Of a DNA stretch of 29,854 bases, positions 19,332 to 29,083 are shown in pieces. The notes below the pieces were generated by a model. The model was not told the DNA's origin. It did no database searches and worked only from the letters and a program-made list of their open reading frames with translations. The number at the start of each line of letters is the position of its first letter. Position 1 is the first letter of the stretch. The translations under genes were made by a program, and so were the position numbers. This DNA comes from a virus. The stretch spans positions 1 through 29,854 of the IMG/VR virus record IMGVR_UViG_3300036814_000330; one strand, written 5' to 3'.

Positions 19332-19974
19332 TCGAGAGCCTAGTAAGCGAGCCCTTACCGTTGATTCGGTATCGTGAGAGATCTTCGCCTTCGGGGATTC
19401 CGGCATCGTCAGCAAGGATCCGTTTGAGTAACTGTGCGTTGTCAAGGTCTTCATCGCTCCTGATGCCGGTTGTCGCTTCCACATGCAGGGACAGGTCCCT
19501 GGAGGTCGTGGGTCGTGCCTTCACGCCGAATTCTTCACGGAGGCTTTCAGCGCCTATTTCTAGCGCACGGGACGCCTGTGGCAATAGCTTTCGGGCTTCG
19601 GTATTGCTGAGTGATTTCAGGTCAGCACGTTGGATAATCACCATTGCCTGATTCATCATCTGTGTAAGATTCCGCACCCGGATCCGAGCGTTCTCCTCGG
19701 CGGTTTGGATCATCGCTTGACGAGCTTGGCTGGCTAGATATTCGTCCCATGCCAGTGCTCGTGCTAGCCATCCCCACTTCGCTGCCCACGTCTGGTAGCG
19801 CCCCGTCGCTCGGCGCACACTCTCCAGCGGCTCACCTGCAACGATCCGCCACGTCTGGTCGACCGTCCGGTCTGGCCCGAGTTGCAAATAGACGTTGAAC
19901 GCTGCCCACGGCTTCGAGCCTTCGGAGGGCATACGTTCCCATTTGTCGGGATCTTTGGATACTGCCATAGTCAT
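19297..19974 (-). CDS. Small terminase-like DNA-recognition protein
   Basis: 225 residues from an ATG at 19974 (ATGA overlap with the HNH-like gene). Residues about 20-85 resemble the HTH part of small terminases and related phage proteins: PWAAFNVYLQLGPDRTVDQT, then TGRYQTWAAKWGWLARALAW with a DEYL end (pattern W-x-A-F-x-x-Y ... W-x-x-R-x-x-x-(W/Y)-D-x-Y-L). The middle is a long helical stretch (ARIRVRNLTQMMNQAMVIIQ) likely to drive oligomerisation, and the C-terminus is polar and disordered. It stands immediately before the large terminase. Small terminases bind the packaging site and pass DNA to TerL. Confidence 0.72.
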   Translation of the reverse strand: MTMAVSKDPDKWERMPSEGSKPWAAFNVYLQLGPDRTVDQTWRIVAGEPLESVRRATGRYQTWAAKWGWLARALAWDEYLASQARQAMIQTAEENARIRVRNLTQMMNQAMVIIQRADLKSLSNTEARKLLPQASRALEIGAESLREEFGVKARPTTSRDLSLHVEATTGIRSDEDLDNAQLLKRILADDAGIPEGEDLSRYRINGKGSLTRLSNGSGGHTNGVR

Positions 19975-20570
19975 GATTTCGATACCTTCTTATTCTTTAT
20001 GGTATCGGATTGGAGGGTAGCCCTCATTGCTCCACCCTTTGGGTCTTGTTTGTCCCATCGGGAATGACAACCCTTACAAAGCCATCTGACTCTGAGCGGC
20101 TCTGCGTAGTTGTAGTGTGCCGCTTCAATCCTTGCCGATTTCCCGCATTCTTCGCAGACAGATGGCCTGACCATTCGCCCTGTTTGGATAGCATATGCGA
20201 CTCGCCTTTGCGCTCTTGTCGCTTCTTTTGTTCCGACCCATCGCTTCTTGATGCCTGTTGATTGAGCCACAACCTTGCATCTGTACGAGCAGAACTGAGC
20301 AGATAGGTACGCAAGAGGTCCGAATCGTTTACCGCAACTGGCACAATCCTTGAACGTCTGAGGACGGTCTGCCCTTCTGCATTCTGATGAGCAATACGGT
20401 CGCTGTTTAGCAATGAACGATGTATCGCATCGCCTACATTTTTGCGCTTTGATTCCGTGGCAATCTTTGCAAGCGGAAGAGTATCCATTAGTCCGTGTTG
20501 TGCGGTGGAATCGGTCAAGCGGAAGAACCTTTTCGCACTTGCTGCACTTCTTCGAATGTAAGTGTTTCAT
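19971..20570 (-). CDS. Cysteine-rich HNH-like protein next to terminase
   Basis: 199 residues from an ATG at 20570; the only in-frame start after an upstream TAA. It has eight cysteine pairs: 9/12, 34/37, 45/48, 60/64, 76/79, 94/98, 139/142 and 165/168, enough for about four zinc sites. The last region (VCEECGKSARIEAAHYNYAE, then VRWLCKGCHSRWD) has the ββα-metal HNH look with H152 and C-x2-CH at the end. Many cos phages encode an HNH nuclease next to their terminase and need it for packaging. The multiple zinc ribbons in front are an unusual extension. Whether it still cuts DNA is open. The start overlaps the methyltransferase end by 56 bases. Confidence 0.72.
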   Translation of the reverse strand: MKHLHSKKCSKCEKVLPLDRFHRTTRTNGYSSACKDCHGIKAQKCRRCDTSFIAKQRPYCSSECRRADRPQTFKDCASCGKRFGPLAYLSAQFCSYRCKVVAQSTGIKKRWVGTKEATRAQRRVAYAIQTGRMVRPSVCEECGKSARIEAAHYNYAEPLRVRWLCKGCHSRWDKQDPKGGAMRATLQSDTIKNKKVSKS

Positions 20571-21297
20571 CTCCTGATGATAGCATTACACCATCACTAG
20601 AGCCAACATAATTGATGTACCTGTTTACGATCACGTCGCAGTAGATCGGGTCGAGTTCTAAGCCGTAGCATTTCCTGCCGGTGCGCTCTGCTGCGATGAG
20701 TGTCGAGCCTGAGCCGAGGAACAGGTCGAGTACAACGTCAGACTTTTTTGTGCAGGCTGTCACATGCTCCACAACCATTTTCACAGGCTTAGGAGTCGGG
20801 TGTCCTACGTTGCTATCCTCGTGGCTCTCTTTGTCGTGAGTATAAATATAGCAATCGTCTAAATAATTCTCAGTCGAGGGCTTTGGTTTCCCTTTCGTAA
20901 AAATAAGGCATGGTTCTGTTTTGTTTATCCATGCACCGTGAGGGTAGGAAATACGGTTCGATTTATACATCGAAACCAGTCTGAAGAACTCCCATTCACC
21001 ATCAAAACTCAACAGGTGGAACTTCCGAGGGCTTTGCCACGCCAGTAAAAAACAATCTACTGCGCTTGCTGTGTACGCGACACTCTGCCACGCTTGGTTG
21101 AAACTTGCCATAGAGTCATCACTAAGGGCGTCGTTTTGAATCTCCCCGCCAGCCTCACTTGTAAACCCAATCCCATAAGGCGGATCAGTGAACACCATGT
21201 CTGCCTTCGCACCGCCCATCAAGTACGCCACGCTCTCAGCGTCCGTAGAGTCGCCGCACAGCAAGCGGTGGTCGGATTTGAGTTGTAAGTTACCCAC
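20515..21297 (-). CDS. Beta-class adenine DNA methyltransferase (DPPYG), second copy
   Basis: The frame runs back to 21465, but the first 56 residues lie inside the previous gene in another frame; the GTG at 21297 within GTGGGTAA gives 260 residues and mirrors the start of the gene before it. Motif order is beta class: TDPPYG at 37-42, HPTPKPVKM at 166-174, then DLFLGSGST at 191-199 and ELDPIYCD at 214-221. Such enzymes methylate adenine N6; the HPT-x-KP motif supports adenine. The first 40 residues (GNLQLKSDHRLLCGDSTDAE...) nearly equal those of the upstream methyltransferase. The end overlaps the HNH-like gene. It may guard the genome against restriction. Confidence 0.88.
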   Translation of the reverse strand: MGNLQLKSDHRLLCGDSTDAESVAYLMGGAKADMVFTDPPYGIGFTSEAGGEIQNDALSDDSMASFNQAWQSVAYTASAVDCFLLAWQSPRKFHLLSFDGEWEFFRLVSMYKSNRISYPHGAWINKTEPCLIFTKGKPKPSTENYLDDCYIYTHDKESHEDSNVGHPTPKPVKMVVEHVTACTKKSDVVLDLFLGSGSTLIAAERTGRKCYGLELDPIYCDVIVNRYINYVGSSDGVMLSSGDETLTFEEVQQVRKGSSA

Positions 21298-22060
21298 TGA
21301 TTCTGACCGCCTTCTTGCCAGTGTGTTCCTCGTATCTGCGGACTGATACGTCGCAGTAAATTGGGTCGAGTTCGATACCAAAACACCGTCGCCCTGTTCG
21401 TTCGGCGGCAATGATCGTCGTGCCAGTCCCTGCGAATGGTTCATATACAGACTTCGACTTATCACATAGCGTTTGCATTACCCACAACGGAAGATGAATG
21501 GGCATTGCTGCTGCGTGTATCTTTGACGATTCGTTTGAATTGTTTGGCGGGGCTGTATACACGTTCGATACAGTTCCGCGCCACGATGACAAAGGGACGC
21601 TCCGAGTGGCGTTATCCATCCCCATTATCACTAACCACTCATATTCCGAGTTCATTACGCTTTCTGCCATGGCTGGCTGTGACCTTTGTTTATTCCACAC
21701 CGCCACATCCACAAGCCTTTCAGACCGTTCACTTACCCACTTGAACATATTCTGTTTATTCCCTGCGAGTAATTGCAAATTCACGACCCACGCATCGCTA
21801 ACCACTGACTGACTAGCGTTCCACCATCCATCCATCAACTCAGCCCAATTTTCAGGAGTGTCATCATATTGGTCGTAAGCATTCTTCTTTTCCGACATTG
21901 CCTTATTACCAGATAGAGAGACGGACTTCCCTAGTGCGTAAGGCGGCGACGTAAAGCATATGTCCGCCTTTGCTCCGTCCATCAAGTACGCCACTGATTC
22001 AGCGTCCGTACTATCCCCACAGAGTAGACGGTGATCGGATTTCAGTGTCAAATTACCCAC
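21290..22060 (-). CDS. Beta-class DNA methyltransferase (TSPPY), first copy
   Basis: 256 residues from a GTG at 22060 within the same GTGGGTAA junction as its follower. TSPPY at 37-41 is typical of N4-cytosine methyltransferases (some adenine enzymes also carry it), FAGTGTTIIAAERTG at 209-223 is the AdoMet motif, and ELDPIYCD at 230-237 follows. The middle target-recognition part (NAYDQYDDTPENWAELMDGW onwards) is unrelated to the second copy. The N-terminal 40 residues and the AAERTGR(R/K)C(F/Y)G(I/L)ELDPIYCD region are shared. It lies between the ParB-like gene and the second methyltransferase. In related phages the ParB and methyltransferase parts are one fused protein. Confidence 0.86.
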   Translation of the reverse strand: MGNLTLKSDHRLLCGDSTDAESVAYLMDGAKADICFTSPPYALGKSVSLSGNKAMSEKKNAYDQYDDTPENWAELMDGWWNASQSVVSDAWVVNLQLLAGNKQNMFKWVSERSERLVDVAVWNKQRSQPAMAESVMNSEYEWLVIMGMDNATRSVPLSSWRGTVSNVYTAPPNNSNESSKIHAAAMPIHLPLWVMQTLCDKSKSVYEPFAGTGTTIIAAERTGRRCFGIELDPIYCDVSVRRYEEHTGKKAVRISG

Positions 22061-22628
22061 AGGGGCACGACTCCATCTTCAGCCCTTCGTCGTACTCGTA
22101 TCGCTTATGGCAATCGTCACACTCGTAATACGCACCCAACAGCCACAAGTCGCCCGGCTGCGTGATCGCTTCGGCTGGAGGCTCCGGTACGTCGTCCGGG
22201 TCGGTCAGTCCATCGGACGGAGTGTTGTCGAAGTCCCTGATTGATAACTCCTCGAAGAAAACGTCGTCGATACCGAACGGGGTGAGGTCAACGTCCATAT
22301 CCTGAAGCTCGTCTATCTCTAATTCGAGGACGCTCGTGTCCCATTCTGACTGCTCGGCGAGCCGGTTGTCGGCGATCACATAGGCTCGCATCTGAGCGTC
22401 GGACAGATGGCTTAGATCGATCGTCGGAACTTCGGTGAGATCGAGCAGGATCGCAGCTTCGAGTCGTCCGTGTCCTGCGACGACTGTGCCGTTATGGGTG
22501 AGGATCGGGTTGGTGAAACCAAACTCCTGGATCGACGCTGCTATCTGTCGGACCTGTTGCTCTGAATGAGTGCGAGCGTTGTTGGCATACGGCGAGAGCT
22601 CGCCGGTCGGAACGGTTAGGATTTCCAT
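22053..22628 (-). CDS. ParB-like protein with C-terminal zinc knuckle
   Basis: I use the ATG at 22628, right after the upstream stop, giving 191 residues; the longer frame to 22739 overlaps the previous gene. Residues 1-97 are a ParB/sulfiredoxin nuclease-like fold: LSPYANNARTHSEQQVRQIA, EFGFTNPILTHNGTVVAGHG (GHGR at 52-55), and MRAYVIADNRLAEQSEWD. Residues 141-165 (LTDPDDVPEPP, QPGDLWLLG) are the linker that in fused phage proteins runs straight into 'DHRLLCGDST' of a methyltransferase. Here the linker is followed instead by C170-x2-C173 and C188-x-C190, then a stop. ParB-like domains in such fusions may recognise DNA or use CTP. The protein overlaps methyltransferase 1 by 8 bases. Confidence 0.82.
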   Translation of the reverse strand: MEILTVPTGELSPYANNARTHSEQQVRQIAASIQEFGFTNPILTHNGTVVAGHGRLEAAILLDLTEVPTIDLSHLSDAQMRAYVIADNRLAEQSEWDTSVLELEIDELQDMDVDLTPFGIDDVFFEELSIRDFDNTPSDGLTDPDDVPEPPAEAITQPGDLWLLGAYYECDDCHKRYEYDEGLKMESCPCG

Positions 22629-25215: not shown

Positions 25216-25369
25216 TGGATGGTTCCTCCGGGGCTACCTGGTCGAGGAGGGATGCCGTGAGTACCAGGTCAACCTCCGAAGTAAATTCGTGTACGTGGGT
25301 GGTGTTCTTGTGGAACTCCTCGAACCTCCCGCAGATCCCGTCGGCGTACATGTAAAAACAGATCTTCAT
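25205..25369 (-). CDS. 54-residue small phage protein
   Basis: A 54-residue frame (MKICFYMYADGICGRFEEFH, then KNTTHVHEFTSEVDLVLTAS) from an ATG at 25369 that overlaps the stop of the previous gene by ATGA and runs 11 bases into the next. The tiny size, coupling on the upstream side and lack of any competing gene support it. Two cysteines lie near the start. Function unknown. Confidence 0.55.
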   Translation of the reverse strand: MKICFYMYADGICGRFEEFHKNTTHVHEFTSEVDLVLTASLLDQVAPEEPSNAR

Positions 25370-25797
25370 ATCACCTTCTCCACTTTCTGCTTCTCGAGCA
25401 GAGCACGAGCGGGTTCGATCAAGTGGTCGGGAACGACGGTGATATAGAAAGCCTCCTCATCGTCAACAGCATCAACAATGTCGGTCAACTTCTGCGAGCA
25501 CTCAGCCCACCGACCCATCGCTTTCAGAGCGATGTCAGCATTCTCTCCCGCGATACGGCGGGCGTTGGCGAGTATCTCCTCGGGCTCTCGCGGGTACTCG
25601 AACAAGTCGTACACAGGCATAACGTGTTCGAGGATATCGGTTAGATCCTCATACGTCGGTCGCTCGCATCGTTCCGGGTGATTCTGTGGGCAAGTGCAAT
25701 CGACGTGGCCCGATCGGTACGGCTGGGCGCAGTTGCGGCACACGTCCATATCGAATCGGCTGTCGCCGTTGGTCATAGTCCACTTCTTAATTCCCAT
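25366..25797 (-). CDS. Phage protein with N-terminal zinc knuckle
   Basis: 143 residues from an ATG at 25797 (TAATG with the 34-residue gene). A cysteine set at the N-terminus (DVCRNCAQPYRSGHVDCTCP, then RCERP) can bind zinc. The rest is helical and acidic (ILANARRIAGENADIALKAM, SQKLTDIVDAVDDEEAF), with a late strand VVPDHLIEPARALLEKQKVE. No family known to me. Part of the early small-gene run. Confidence 0.65.
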   Translation of the reverse strand: MGIKKWTMTNGDSRFDMDVCRNCAQPYRSGHVDCTCPQNHPERCERPTYEDLTDILEHVMPVYDLFEYPREPEEILANARRIAGENADIALKAMGRWAECSQKLTDIVDAVDDEEAFYITVVPDHLIEPARALLEKQKVEKVI

Positions 25798-25901
25798 TAC
25801 TTTGATTCCTCGGATTCTTTGCAGGGATATTCGTCCCCATTTTTGATGTAAGAGATAGCGCTGTCGATATCTTCTTGCGTTACGTCGTCGGGGAGAATCA
25901 T
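25797..25901 (-). CDS. 34-residue small acidic protein
   Basis: ATG at 25901 overlaps the stop of the 60-residue gene (ATGA); stop TAA overlaps the next start (TAATG). The 34 residues (MILPDDVTQEDIDSAISYIK, NGDEYPCKESEESK) are acidic with one likely helix. Coupling at both ends is the evidence that it is translated. Too short for a family call; antirepressor-like or anti-restriction small proteins can be of this size, but that is speculation. Confidence 0.55.
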   Translation of the reverse strand: MILPDDVTQEDIDSAISYIKNGDEYPCKESEESK

Positions 25902-26136: not shown

Positions 26137-26745
26137 TTACAACCATTTGACCCATCTGTCTTTGGGGGCTGTCTTGATTCGTTGCATGTTGAGGGCATCC
26201 CTTGATTCAGAAACGTGTATTCCGTTGCGCCTTGCATGCCGATAGGCGAACCGTCGATGCCTCACTTTCCCGTCTAGCCCCACGAGGTGAACTTCTGCTT
26301 GCGTGGCCCCCATGTGGGTGAAGCTAGCAGCACGATAAATACCACCGGAATGCCCCTGCTCGGGGTCACTGAACGCCACCACGCATTTGATGCCTTGCTT
26401 CTTCAATGCTTTGTTGCACATGGATATGAATTTGGTCAGAGGTAAATCATCCCTGCGTGGCTCAACCCTGCATAGTCGTTTTAGTTCAACCAGTTGATCT
26501 ATTCGCAACTCTCGCCCCGATTCACGAGCAATGAATTCAGCTTGATAGGGATTCACCCCGATACCGTAATCAGCAACGGCGTATAAAACATCACCGAACA
26601 TATCTTTAGTTTCAATGAGCGTGTCTGGTGTCGATGGTAGTCGTATTCCAAAAAACTGATTCTGTCCTGTCGGGACACGTTCAGAGTAGTGCCATCGTTC
26701 GATGAACGGGCGTGCTGTTTCGAGATTGATTTCAGTTGCGTTCAC
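26137..26745 (-). CDS. Mom-like DNA adenine modification protein
   Basis: 202 residues from a GTG at 26745 with GGGAG upstream. The signature is that of the Mom family of GNAT-fold proteins, which in phage Mu convert adenine in DNA to a methylcarbamoyl form that blocks restriction: WHYSERVPTG early (18-27), DQLVELKRLCRVEP (ELKRLC at 87-92), FISMCNKALKKQG, and AFSDPEQGHSGGIYRAASFT (124-143, the 'vsfaD ... GH-x-G-x-IY-A-x-x-F' core), ending in DRWVKWL. No Com gene is recognised, but this gene sits behind the helicase and the window also encodes two methyltransferases. Mom-like proteins with varied substrates exist, so the modification is an inference. Confidence 0.76.
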   Translation of the reverse strand: MNATEINLETARPFIERWHYSERVPTGQNQFFGIRLPSTPDTLIETKDMFGDVLYAVADYGIGVNPYQAEFIARESGRELRIDQLVELKRLCRVEPRRDDLPLTKFISMCNKALKKQGIKCVVAFSDPEQGHSGGIYRAASFTHMGATQAEVHLVGLDGKVRHRRFAYRHARRNGIHVSESRDALNMQRIKTAPKDRWVKWL

Positions 26746-28561: not shown

Positions 28562-28649
28562 GATTCCCGTGTGCGCGTATGTGCGCACACGTATGTGTAA
28601 GGCCGAGTTTCGTCACGACTTCTTGGTCTGTACCTTTACAGATAGCCAT
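28512..28649 (-). CDS. Possible 45-residue coupled ORF
   Basis: An ATG at 28649 overlaps the stop of the DPPY protein (TAATG), the same coupling seen across the window, and opens a 45-residue frame (MAICKGTDQEVVTKLGLTHT ... FKMYPLAV). Only the first 20 residues look protein-like; the rest crosses the hairpin and AGGGGAGAC repeats. No ribosome site is visible. It may be a real small protein, a leader peptide or chance. Confidence 0.28.
   Translation of the reverse strand: MAICKGTDQEVVTKLGLTHTCAHIRAHGNQGRQGRHEFKMYPLAV
28568..28591. promoter_or_regulatory. 9-bp perfect hairpin
   Basis: CGTGTGCGC (28568-28576) and GCGCACACG (28583-28591) pair perfectly around a 6-base loop GTATGT. CGTATGTG is also repeated directly at 28576-28583 and 28590-28597. 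Neither strand shows a U-run, so it is not a standard terminator. A binding site, replication-related cruciform or mRNA element is possible. Confidence 0.6.
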
Positions 28650-29083
28650 TAGAGTTTCATCGCCATCTGTGTCTTTTCAAACACTTGTAAAACTCTGATT
28701 TTTTTCAGTGGACCCATCGTGATTCCAACCATCCCTGTTCGCTTGGCTCCGATGAACCACGAAGTCGGGTATACGTGGGTGTGGAATATGGCTATCTTGC
28801 GAACGGTTCGCCATATCTCAAGTCCCTCGGGTTTATAAAGTCGGTCGTATGGAGGATCCCAATAACCGAACTCGAACTGATCGTCCTCGAACGGAAGATC
28901 AAGCCAGTTGTATCCAGTATTCAAGTCCACATGCACCGGGCCTTCTGGGATTCCGTCTGTGGAACCGAACGACGCATCTGGGGTTCCGAATGTTTCAACT
29001 ATTCGATCCCACATACGAGGGCCGTTCCCCCAATGCTTTGTCATTGGTCGAGGCAGCGCCCAGAAATCGAATGTAACCGTCAC
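28649..29083 (-). CDS. Small protein with orphan DPPY methyltransferase motif
   Basis: 144 residues from an ATG at 29083 (overlaps the previous stop, ATGA). It contains the methyltransferase catalytic motif as FGYWDPPYDRLYKPEGLEIW near 72-91, preceded by VHVDLNTGYNWLDLPFEDDQ that resembles the strand region before motif IV. It lacks a recognisable glycine-rich AdoMet motif (FxGxG), so it is either a minimal or degenerate methyltransferase or a non-enzymatic relative. The end (VGITMGPLKKIRVLQVFEKT) is a plausible final beta strand pair. It is separate from the two full methyltransferases near 21-22 kb. Function uncertain. Confidence 0.6.
   Translation of the reverse strand: MTVTFDFWALPRPMTKHWGNGPRMWDRIVETFGTPDASFGSTDGIPEGPVHVDLNTGYNWLDLPFEDDQFEFGYWDPPYDRLYKPEGLEIWRTVRKIAIFHTHVYPTSWFIGAKRTGMVGITMGPLKKIRVLQVFEKTQMAMKL

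Follow-up and report, generated by a model that had tools for sequence, protein, structure and literature searches.

A phage ParB–methyltransferase fusion in pieces, with the freed methyltransferase as a probable exchangeable cassette

The 29,854-base virus record IMGVR_UViG_3300036814_000330, which was analysed over its whole length and is called the window below, carries the gene of a ParB-fold protein followed by the genes of two DNA methyltransferases (MTases), namely, MT1 and MT2. Taken together, the evidence makes it probable that this locus is a ParB–MTase fusion in pieces, in which the freed MTase has become an exchangeable cassette and the insert between the halves is the footprint of an HNH homing element. 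All features of the locus lie on the minus strand, in the order of a 92-amino-acid (aa) gene, ParB, MT1, MT2, an HNH-like zinc-finger gene and the small and large terminase subunits. ParB (22053–22628) comprises 191 aa, MT1 (21290–22060) 256 aa and MT2 (20515–21297) 260 aa. Both MTases start at the GTG of the octamer GTGGGTAA and overlap the stop of the preceding gene by 8 nucleotides (nt), at junction 1 (22053–22060, MT1 start and ParB stop) and junction 2 (21290–21297, MT2 start and MT1 stop). Re-reading of the minus strand reproduced this order and these starts as given in a preliminary description of the same DNA. As a word, GTGGGTAA is unremarkable, with five occurrences on the minus strand of the window; its use at both start/stop overlaps is remarkable. 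Near-identical contigs from other samples (L001, 99.7%; L numbers denote related contigs and loci) have the same junctions and the split is present in approximately 30 relatives, and an assembly or frameshift error was therefore rejected.

The fused gene is the normal form. In the relatives found with MT1, and in most of those found with ParB, the ParB part continues through GDLWxLG directly into the xHRLLCGDST motif of the MTase, as the preliminary description had said of other phages. Its reading of the present locus as a split form of such a protein is upheld by these relatives and by the best fused/split pair, L128 and L143, which share 75.5% DNA identity over 482 nt before the junction and 83% over 96 nt after it; exactly 97 nt are present in the split L143 alone, so that an uninterrupted homologue exists at the same point in a close relative. 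The first two codons of the insert, GC(N)-TA(Y), specify A-Y, and a GxLxLKS cap, by which the lost GDLWLLG strand is restored, lies at its end; besides this cap, the insert encodes a zinc-knuckle tail for ParB and an NTG start. In the window, alignment of tail and head places it at 22037–22133, with the tail codons, the stop, the overlapping GTG start and the cap GNLTLKS. Because 97 is 3n + 1, the insert shifts the frame, and the window and approximately 30 relatives encode the two halves in separate frames with separate starts rather than as one polypeptide.

Both parts of the fusion family were recognised in the window. ParB matches PHROG 498 (residues 33–200) and PHROG 620, and MT1 and MT2, both members of PF01555, also cover PHROG 498 from position 200 onward. 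In PDLC03229 of PADLOC, one fused-family model of 436 positions, ParB covers positions 9–193, MT1 169–411 and MT2 169–419. The shared stretch, 169–193, includes the GDLWLLG strand, which is thus present twice, in ParB and at each MTase head, where it is rewritten as GNLTLKS in MT1 and GNLQLKS in MT2. MGNLTLKSDHRLL aligns gap-free with GDLWLLGDHRLL, and residues 2–6 of the MT1 model form a strand at low confidence. The AlphaFold model of ParB has a mean predicted local distance difference test (pLDDT) score of 84 and matches ParB/Noc structures at E about 1e-6, with weaker structural matches to free serine kinase and sulfiredoxin.

The preliminary description held that ParB leaves the fused path for a CxxC/CxC knuckle and then stops, and the translation bears this out: the 191-aa protein terminates in GDLWLLGAYYECDDCHKRYEYDEGLKMESCPCG, a CxxC...CxC zinc-knuckle tail. 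The tail coding region, AYYECDDCHKRYEYDEGLKMESCPCG (22056–22133), is modelled as a short beta hairpin and turn with pLDDT of 74–83, and A-Y, CxxC, K and Y are its invariant residues. Substitutions at the three codon positions occur at 0.14/0.15/0.47 in the tail, read in the ParB frame across 14 loci, and at 0.29/0.26/0.53 in the MTase head, read in the MTase frame. Tail and head change mainly at third positions of their own frames; therefore, both are translated and constrained. An intein or intron in the split was rejected in view of this codon constraint and of the small size of the 97-nt form, which could by no means accommodate a group I intron as judged from the sequence, with no RNA-family search made.

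Approximately 30 distinct split loci were recovered when the tail, the head and a tail profile were used as queries, four of them on Phycisphaerae genome contigs. These four (L158, L159, L160 and L161), three of which come from one metagenome-assembled genome, each have two MTases in their split locus, and the core of the first is of the general type of window MT1. No convincing member was obtained in zinc-tail searches of cultured phages and plasmids; an HNH match in a Blautia phage from the tail search was dismissed as a chance match to an unrelated gene.

MT1 and MT2 have the layout of beta-type N6/N4 amino-methyltransferases, with (D/S)PPY N-terminal to FxGxG and a variable region between them in the alignment. 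MT1 (PF01555, E 1e-20) matches M.PvuII, CcrM and TTHA0409 in Foldseek, MT2 (PF01555, E 1e-26) has PDB sequence matches to M.BceJIV, CcrM and M.RsrI, and the structural matches M.PvuII, M.RsrI and CcrM agree with this class. MT1 carries TSPPY, a form generally associated with N4-cytosine enzymes, and MT2 carries TDPPY, generally associated with N6-adenine enzymes. The conserved N-flank comprises residues 1–41 in both, reaching up to PPY in MT1 (21938–22060) and spanning 21175–21297 in MT2. As the preliminary description noted, these N-termini of approximately 40 residues are nearly identical (36 of 41 residues), though only 73% identical in DNA (33 of 123 positions differ), with different codons for 19 of the 36 shared residues. 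The variable core of MT1 (21518–21937) is of a type shared with the fused relatives L002–L016 at 58–62% identity, and that of MT2 (20803–21174) of a type shared with the fused relatives L028/L029 at 62%. The two cores, which had been called unrelated, share 27% identity, a little more than shuffled sequence gives (z 3.9) and in keeping with a common Rossmann fold that holds different recognition parts.

Split loci carry one to three MTases, and at least two are present in 16 of the approximately 30. Single MTases occur, for example, in L123, L144, L146, L147, L163 and L166; two occur in the window, L143, L148, L158–L161, L164, L165, L171, L188, L193, L194, L197 and L199; and three occur in L145. 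Every added MTase retains the head and overlaps the preceding gene, usually by 8 or 14 nt, with GTG, ATG or TTG as the start. The idea that the junction is copied along with the gene thus found support in other phages, where the NTG start, the GxLxLKS cap and the 8- or 14-nt overlap repeat with each added MTase. Behind the 89 fused genes with room downstream, no ParB-less MTase of the same array was found. Five fused genes were followed by a second complete fusion, and a sixth case, L200, by a separate split locus. The association of arrays with the split form (16 of approximately 30 against 0 of 89) gives a Fisher p of about 5e-12, a value to be read with caution as the test counts related loci as independent. 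Phage mosaicism and orphan MTases are common, and the locus could accordingly be regarded as an ordinary operon of unrelated phage MTases produced by general mosaicism only; we consider this very unlikely, given that the junction is identical across arrays, that breakpoints fall at fixed motifs (see below) and that arrays are tied to the split form. Tandem complete ParB–MTase fusions, with the fusion kept, were observed in L024, L131, L133, L136 and L137, and appear to be the fused way to two specificities. In L144, L145 and L148, the terminase small subunit (MGRRGTKP/MGKRGTKP) starts in the same ATGGGTA overlap with the stop of the last MTase; hence, the coupled block can span from ParB to terminase.

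Cores vary between flanks that stay the same. L163 and L166 share 94.4% identity up to MTase codon 43 and 99.1% over the stretch that extends from about codon 183 through terminase, whereas the approximately 420 nt between these flanks have no DNA similarity. The outer flanks of L144, with one MTase, and L145, with three, are 94% and 85% identical. Where the identity of a pair reaches 85% or more in both flanks, the cores show a bimodal distribution, with identities of either 24–32% or at least 89%. Clustering of 48 MTase cassettes on the variable part only gave 27 core types; with the HPTxKP/motif-I part included, all cores were joined. One breakpoint falls at (D/S)PPY and the other ahead of FxGxG. 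These comparisons therefore give good support to core swapping between conserved flanks. The preliminary description had proposed it, and the other core types that it would entail between the same flanks in related phages are present in L163/L166 and others.

The arrangement of starts and stops bears on how the genes would be translated. NTG (GTG, ATG or TTG) is kept at every junction and the stop moves (offsets of −5, −8, −14 and others); the overlaps, where there are any, measure 8, 13 or 14 nt, and the MTases of L141, L197 and L199 begin only beyond the preceding stop. AAGGA(G) precedes the start by 7–8 nt in most first MTases and is encoded by the conserved tail KEC/KDC, and in the window a candidate Shine–Dalgarno GGAG lies 10 nt upstream of the MT1 GTG within the tail codons (22071–22074). 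The constant NTG, the variable stop and the AAGGA(G)-type sites favour initiation or reinitiation at the overlapping start over frameshifting, and translation may thereby be coupled. A programmed +1 frameshift at GGG-TAA would instead join ParB to MT1 and MT1 to MT2, so that the product would still be a fusion. The window frames do meet at GGG TAA, a shift would yield ...CPCGNLTLKS..., and the cap aligns with the fused strand. Even so, this alternative is highly improbable: NTG is conserved while the stop moves, MTases that start after the stop exist, AAGGAG-like sites stand before most GTGs and every added MTase has its own start. Programmed frameshifting was consequently rejected, as no conserved slippery codon before the stop was found. 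Conservation of the second knuckle (CPC) probably reflects in part a translation-signal constraint, because the tail KEC/KDC codons encode the AAGGA(G) before the MTase start and the zinc-tailed ParB of L162 (688–774), which has no MTase behind it, has also lost the second knuckle, as though this portion had been retained for the sake of the MTase alone.

The history of the MT1/MT2 pair is less simple than the recent duplication first proposed. Over the HR-to-PPY region, MT2 shares 87.5% DNA identity with fused L128, 85.4% with L127 and 81.2% with L129, compared with 71.9% with MT1. A recent duplication is thus not the history of the flanks of this pair, a result that counts against the overall explanation favoured here. 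The near-identity of the N-termini is partly a clade feature, as the DAESVAYLM flank is common to a clade that includes fused enzymes; to that extent the concern that the shared flank is a general family feature was justified, but the split-type head is absent from fused enzymes. Separate acquisition of the two MTases from different phages, their similar N-termini being clade flank sequence only, is accordingly a possibility, though a doubtful one. In its favour, fused relatives stand closer to the MT2 N-flank than MT1 does, and each core is most closely related to different fused enzymes; against it, both MTases bear the split-type head (NTG-GGT-GxLxLKS) and this head recurs at second and third array positions in other phages. 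At least the MT2 head and junction therefore derive from a split locus. Either the duplication is old, or MT2 took its flank and core from another phage and its head from a split locus.

The insert recurs in ParB lineages that are far apart. On a ParB tree built without the insert, 11 changes between split and fused forms were counted, at least six of which are forced by well-supported branches, and the insert appears to be mobile among distant lineages. In two diverged loci, L142 and L150, an HNH endonuclease open reading frame (ORF) of 203 or 172 aa (PF01844, E about 1e-12) lies flush between tail and MTase, overlapping both neighbours by approximately 10–13 nt. An insert met repeatedly at a single site, in lineages far apart and occasionally together with an HNH gene, is best explained as a homing element or what remains of one; most likely, the 97-nt insert is what an HNH homing element left behind on losing its nuclease. 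Several points weigh against this origin. The window insert holds no HNH ORF, and HNH genes were seen in two split loci only; the tree was a quick build in which many forks stayed open and some branches were long; and entry of HNH into an already split gene is also feasible. The split might thus have formed without an endonuclease, through insertion or recruitment of a zinc-ribbon segment, with HNH genes entering the ready-made gap later. Most split loci lack HNH, zinc knuckles flank the break in a second split type (L201–L212), and a T4 review cites gene 43 of phage 25 as a gene that may have been split before its nuclease arrived (PMC2988022). We regard this origin as rather unlikely, because the spread of the insert over several distant ParB lineages calls for a mobile agent, and HNH lies flush in two diverged loci. 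The second split type, observed at the same point in L201, L202, L203, L204, L206, L207, L208, L209 and L212, has a ParB ending in one knuckle (e.g., GAYVKCPHCGEENPT) and an MTase beginning with another (e.g., MTCTCKKCGKPFDAPVQSRHRLLCGD), as if one zinc ribbon were divided between two proteins. The zinc-finger/HNH-like gene of the window (19971–20570), which overlaps the MT2 end and precedes the terminase small subunit, matches PHROG 2340 endonuclease (E 4e-20); it has no HNH Pfam match, unlike the HNH of L142 and L150, and was rejected as their counterpart because its domain content differs.

Under the homing-footprint explanation, a short mobile insert would have separated the GDLWLLG strand from the xHRLLCGDST motif, giving ParB its zinc-knuckle tail and the MTase an NTG start inside the upstream gene end together with the GxLxLKS strand. 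Loss of the nuclease would have left the insert as a footprint, and the freed MTase would then constitute a cassette of head, N-flank to (D/S)PPY, recognition core and C-flank. Such cassettes could be added in tandem and their cores replaced by homologous recombination in the flanks, and each gene would be translated from its overlapping start by (re)initiation. One ParB subunit would serve at least two MTases of different specificity, thereby modifying phage DNA against host restriction; the arrays are most simply read as several MTases that share one ParB. A more far-reaching proposal, offered tentatively, is a modular phage system in which a ParB-fold NTPase with a zinc-ribbon docking tail is the common subunit of an exchangeable MTase array, and the HNH-made junction is reused as a cassette boundary for rapid re-targeting of methylation. 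An anti-defence role has been suggested for phage ParB-fold/MTase fusions, and ATP, CTP or GTP binding is known for some ParB-fold proteins (PMC12704722). Phage MTases can protect phage DNA from restriction (PMC4190342).

Other parts of the window were also informative. A Mom-family protein is encoded at 26137–26745 on the minus strand (PF25680, E 8e-23), and the phage may use Mom-type base modification besides its two MTases. A 144-aa ORF with a WDPPYD motif (28649–29083, minus strand) had no match in Pfam, PHROGs, NCBIfam or PADLOC and is possibly a very divergent methyltransferase-like protein. The near-identical contigs L001/L139 and L042 lack approximately 425 nt at window ~25381–25805 and have approximately 110 nt instead, affecting the ORF at 25366–25797; this would represent a variable gene inside one viral population.

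The locus links selfish nuclease insertions that break genes with specificity switching of DNA modification, two subjects usually treated apart; if the explanation is true, a parasitic insertion turned a fused enzyme modular and evolvable. Exchange of core cassettes would let phages change which DNA sequences are marked against host defences, and this small locus, with 48 natural cassettes of 27 core types, makes phage anti-restriction repertoires and target recognition domain (TRD) exchange directly testable by motif mapping. Both halves match the phage ParB–N6/N4 MTase fusions (PHROG 498, PDLC03229, PMC12704722), and the nearest relatives of both cores are fusions; unlike these, the locus has separate genes, a zinc tail, a new MTase head and two MTases per ParB. 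Lactococcal 936-type phages also carry orphan MTases, some in the packaging module, that protect from restriction enzymes, but the available part of that description mentions no ParB, zinc tail or cassette array (PMC4190342). TRD movement changes methylation motifs in bacteria (PMC3983042), and in Helicobacter pylori recognition domains are exchanged within conserved flanks with a change in specificity (PMC3983042, PMC3077401), just as close relatives here, L163/L166 and others, hold different cores between the same flanks. The H. pylori cases concern bacterial Type I and other restriction–modification systems, whereas the present enzymes are phage-borne single-chain MTases in tandem arrays beside a shared ParB. 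The closest precedents are the Aeh1 nrdA gene split by the HNH endonuclease mobE and the T4 topoisomerase genes split by mobA (PMC2988022). As in those genes in pieces, the gene is continuous in relatives and split at a critical place, an HNH nuclease lies in the gap of some members and start/stop overlaps suggest coupling; in contrast to them, the window has no nuclease, and the split gene here multiplies and exchanges its specificity core.

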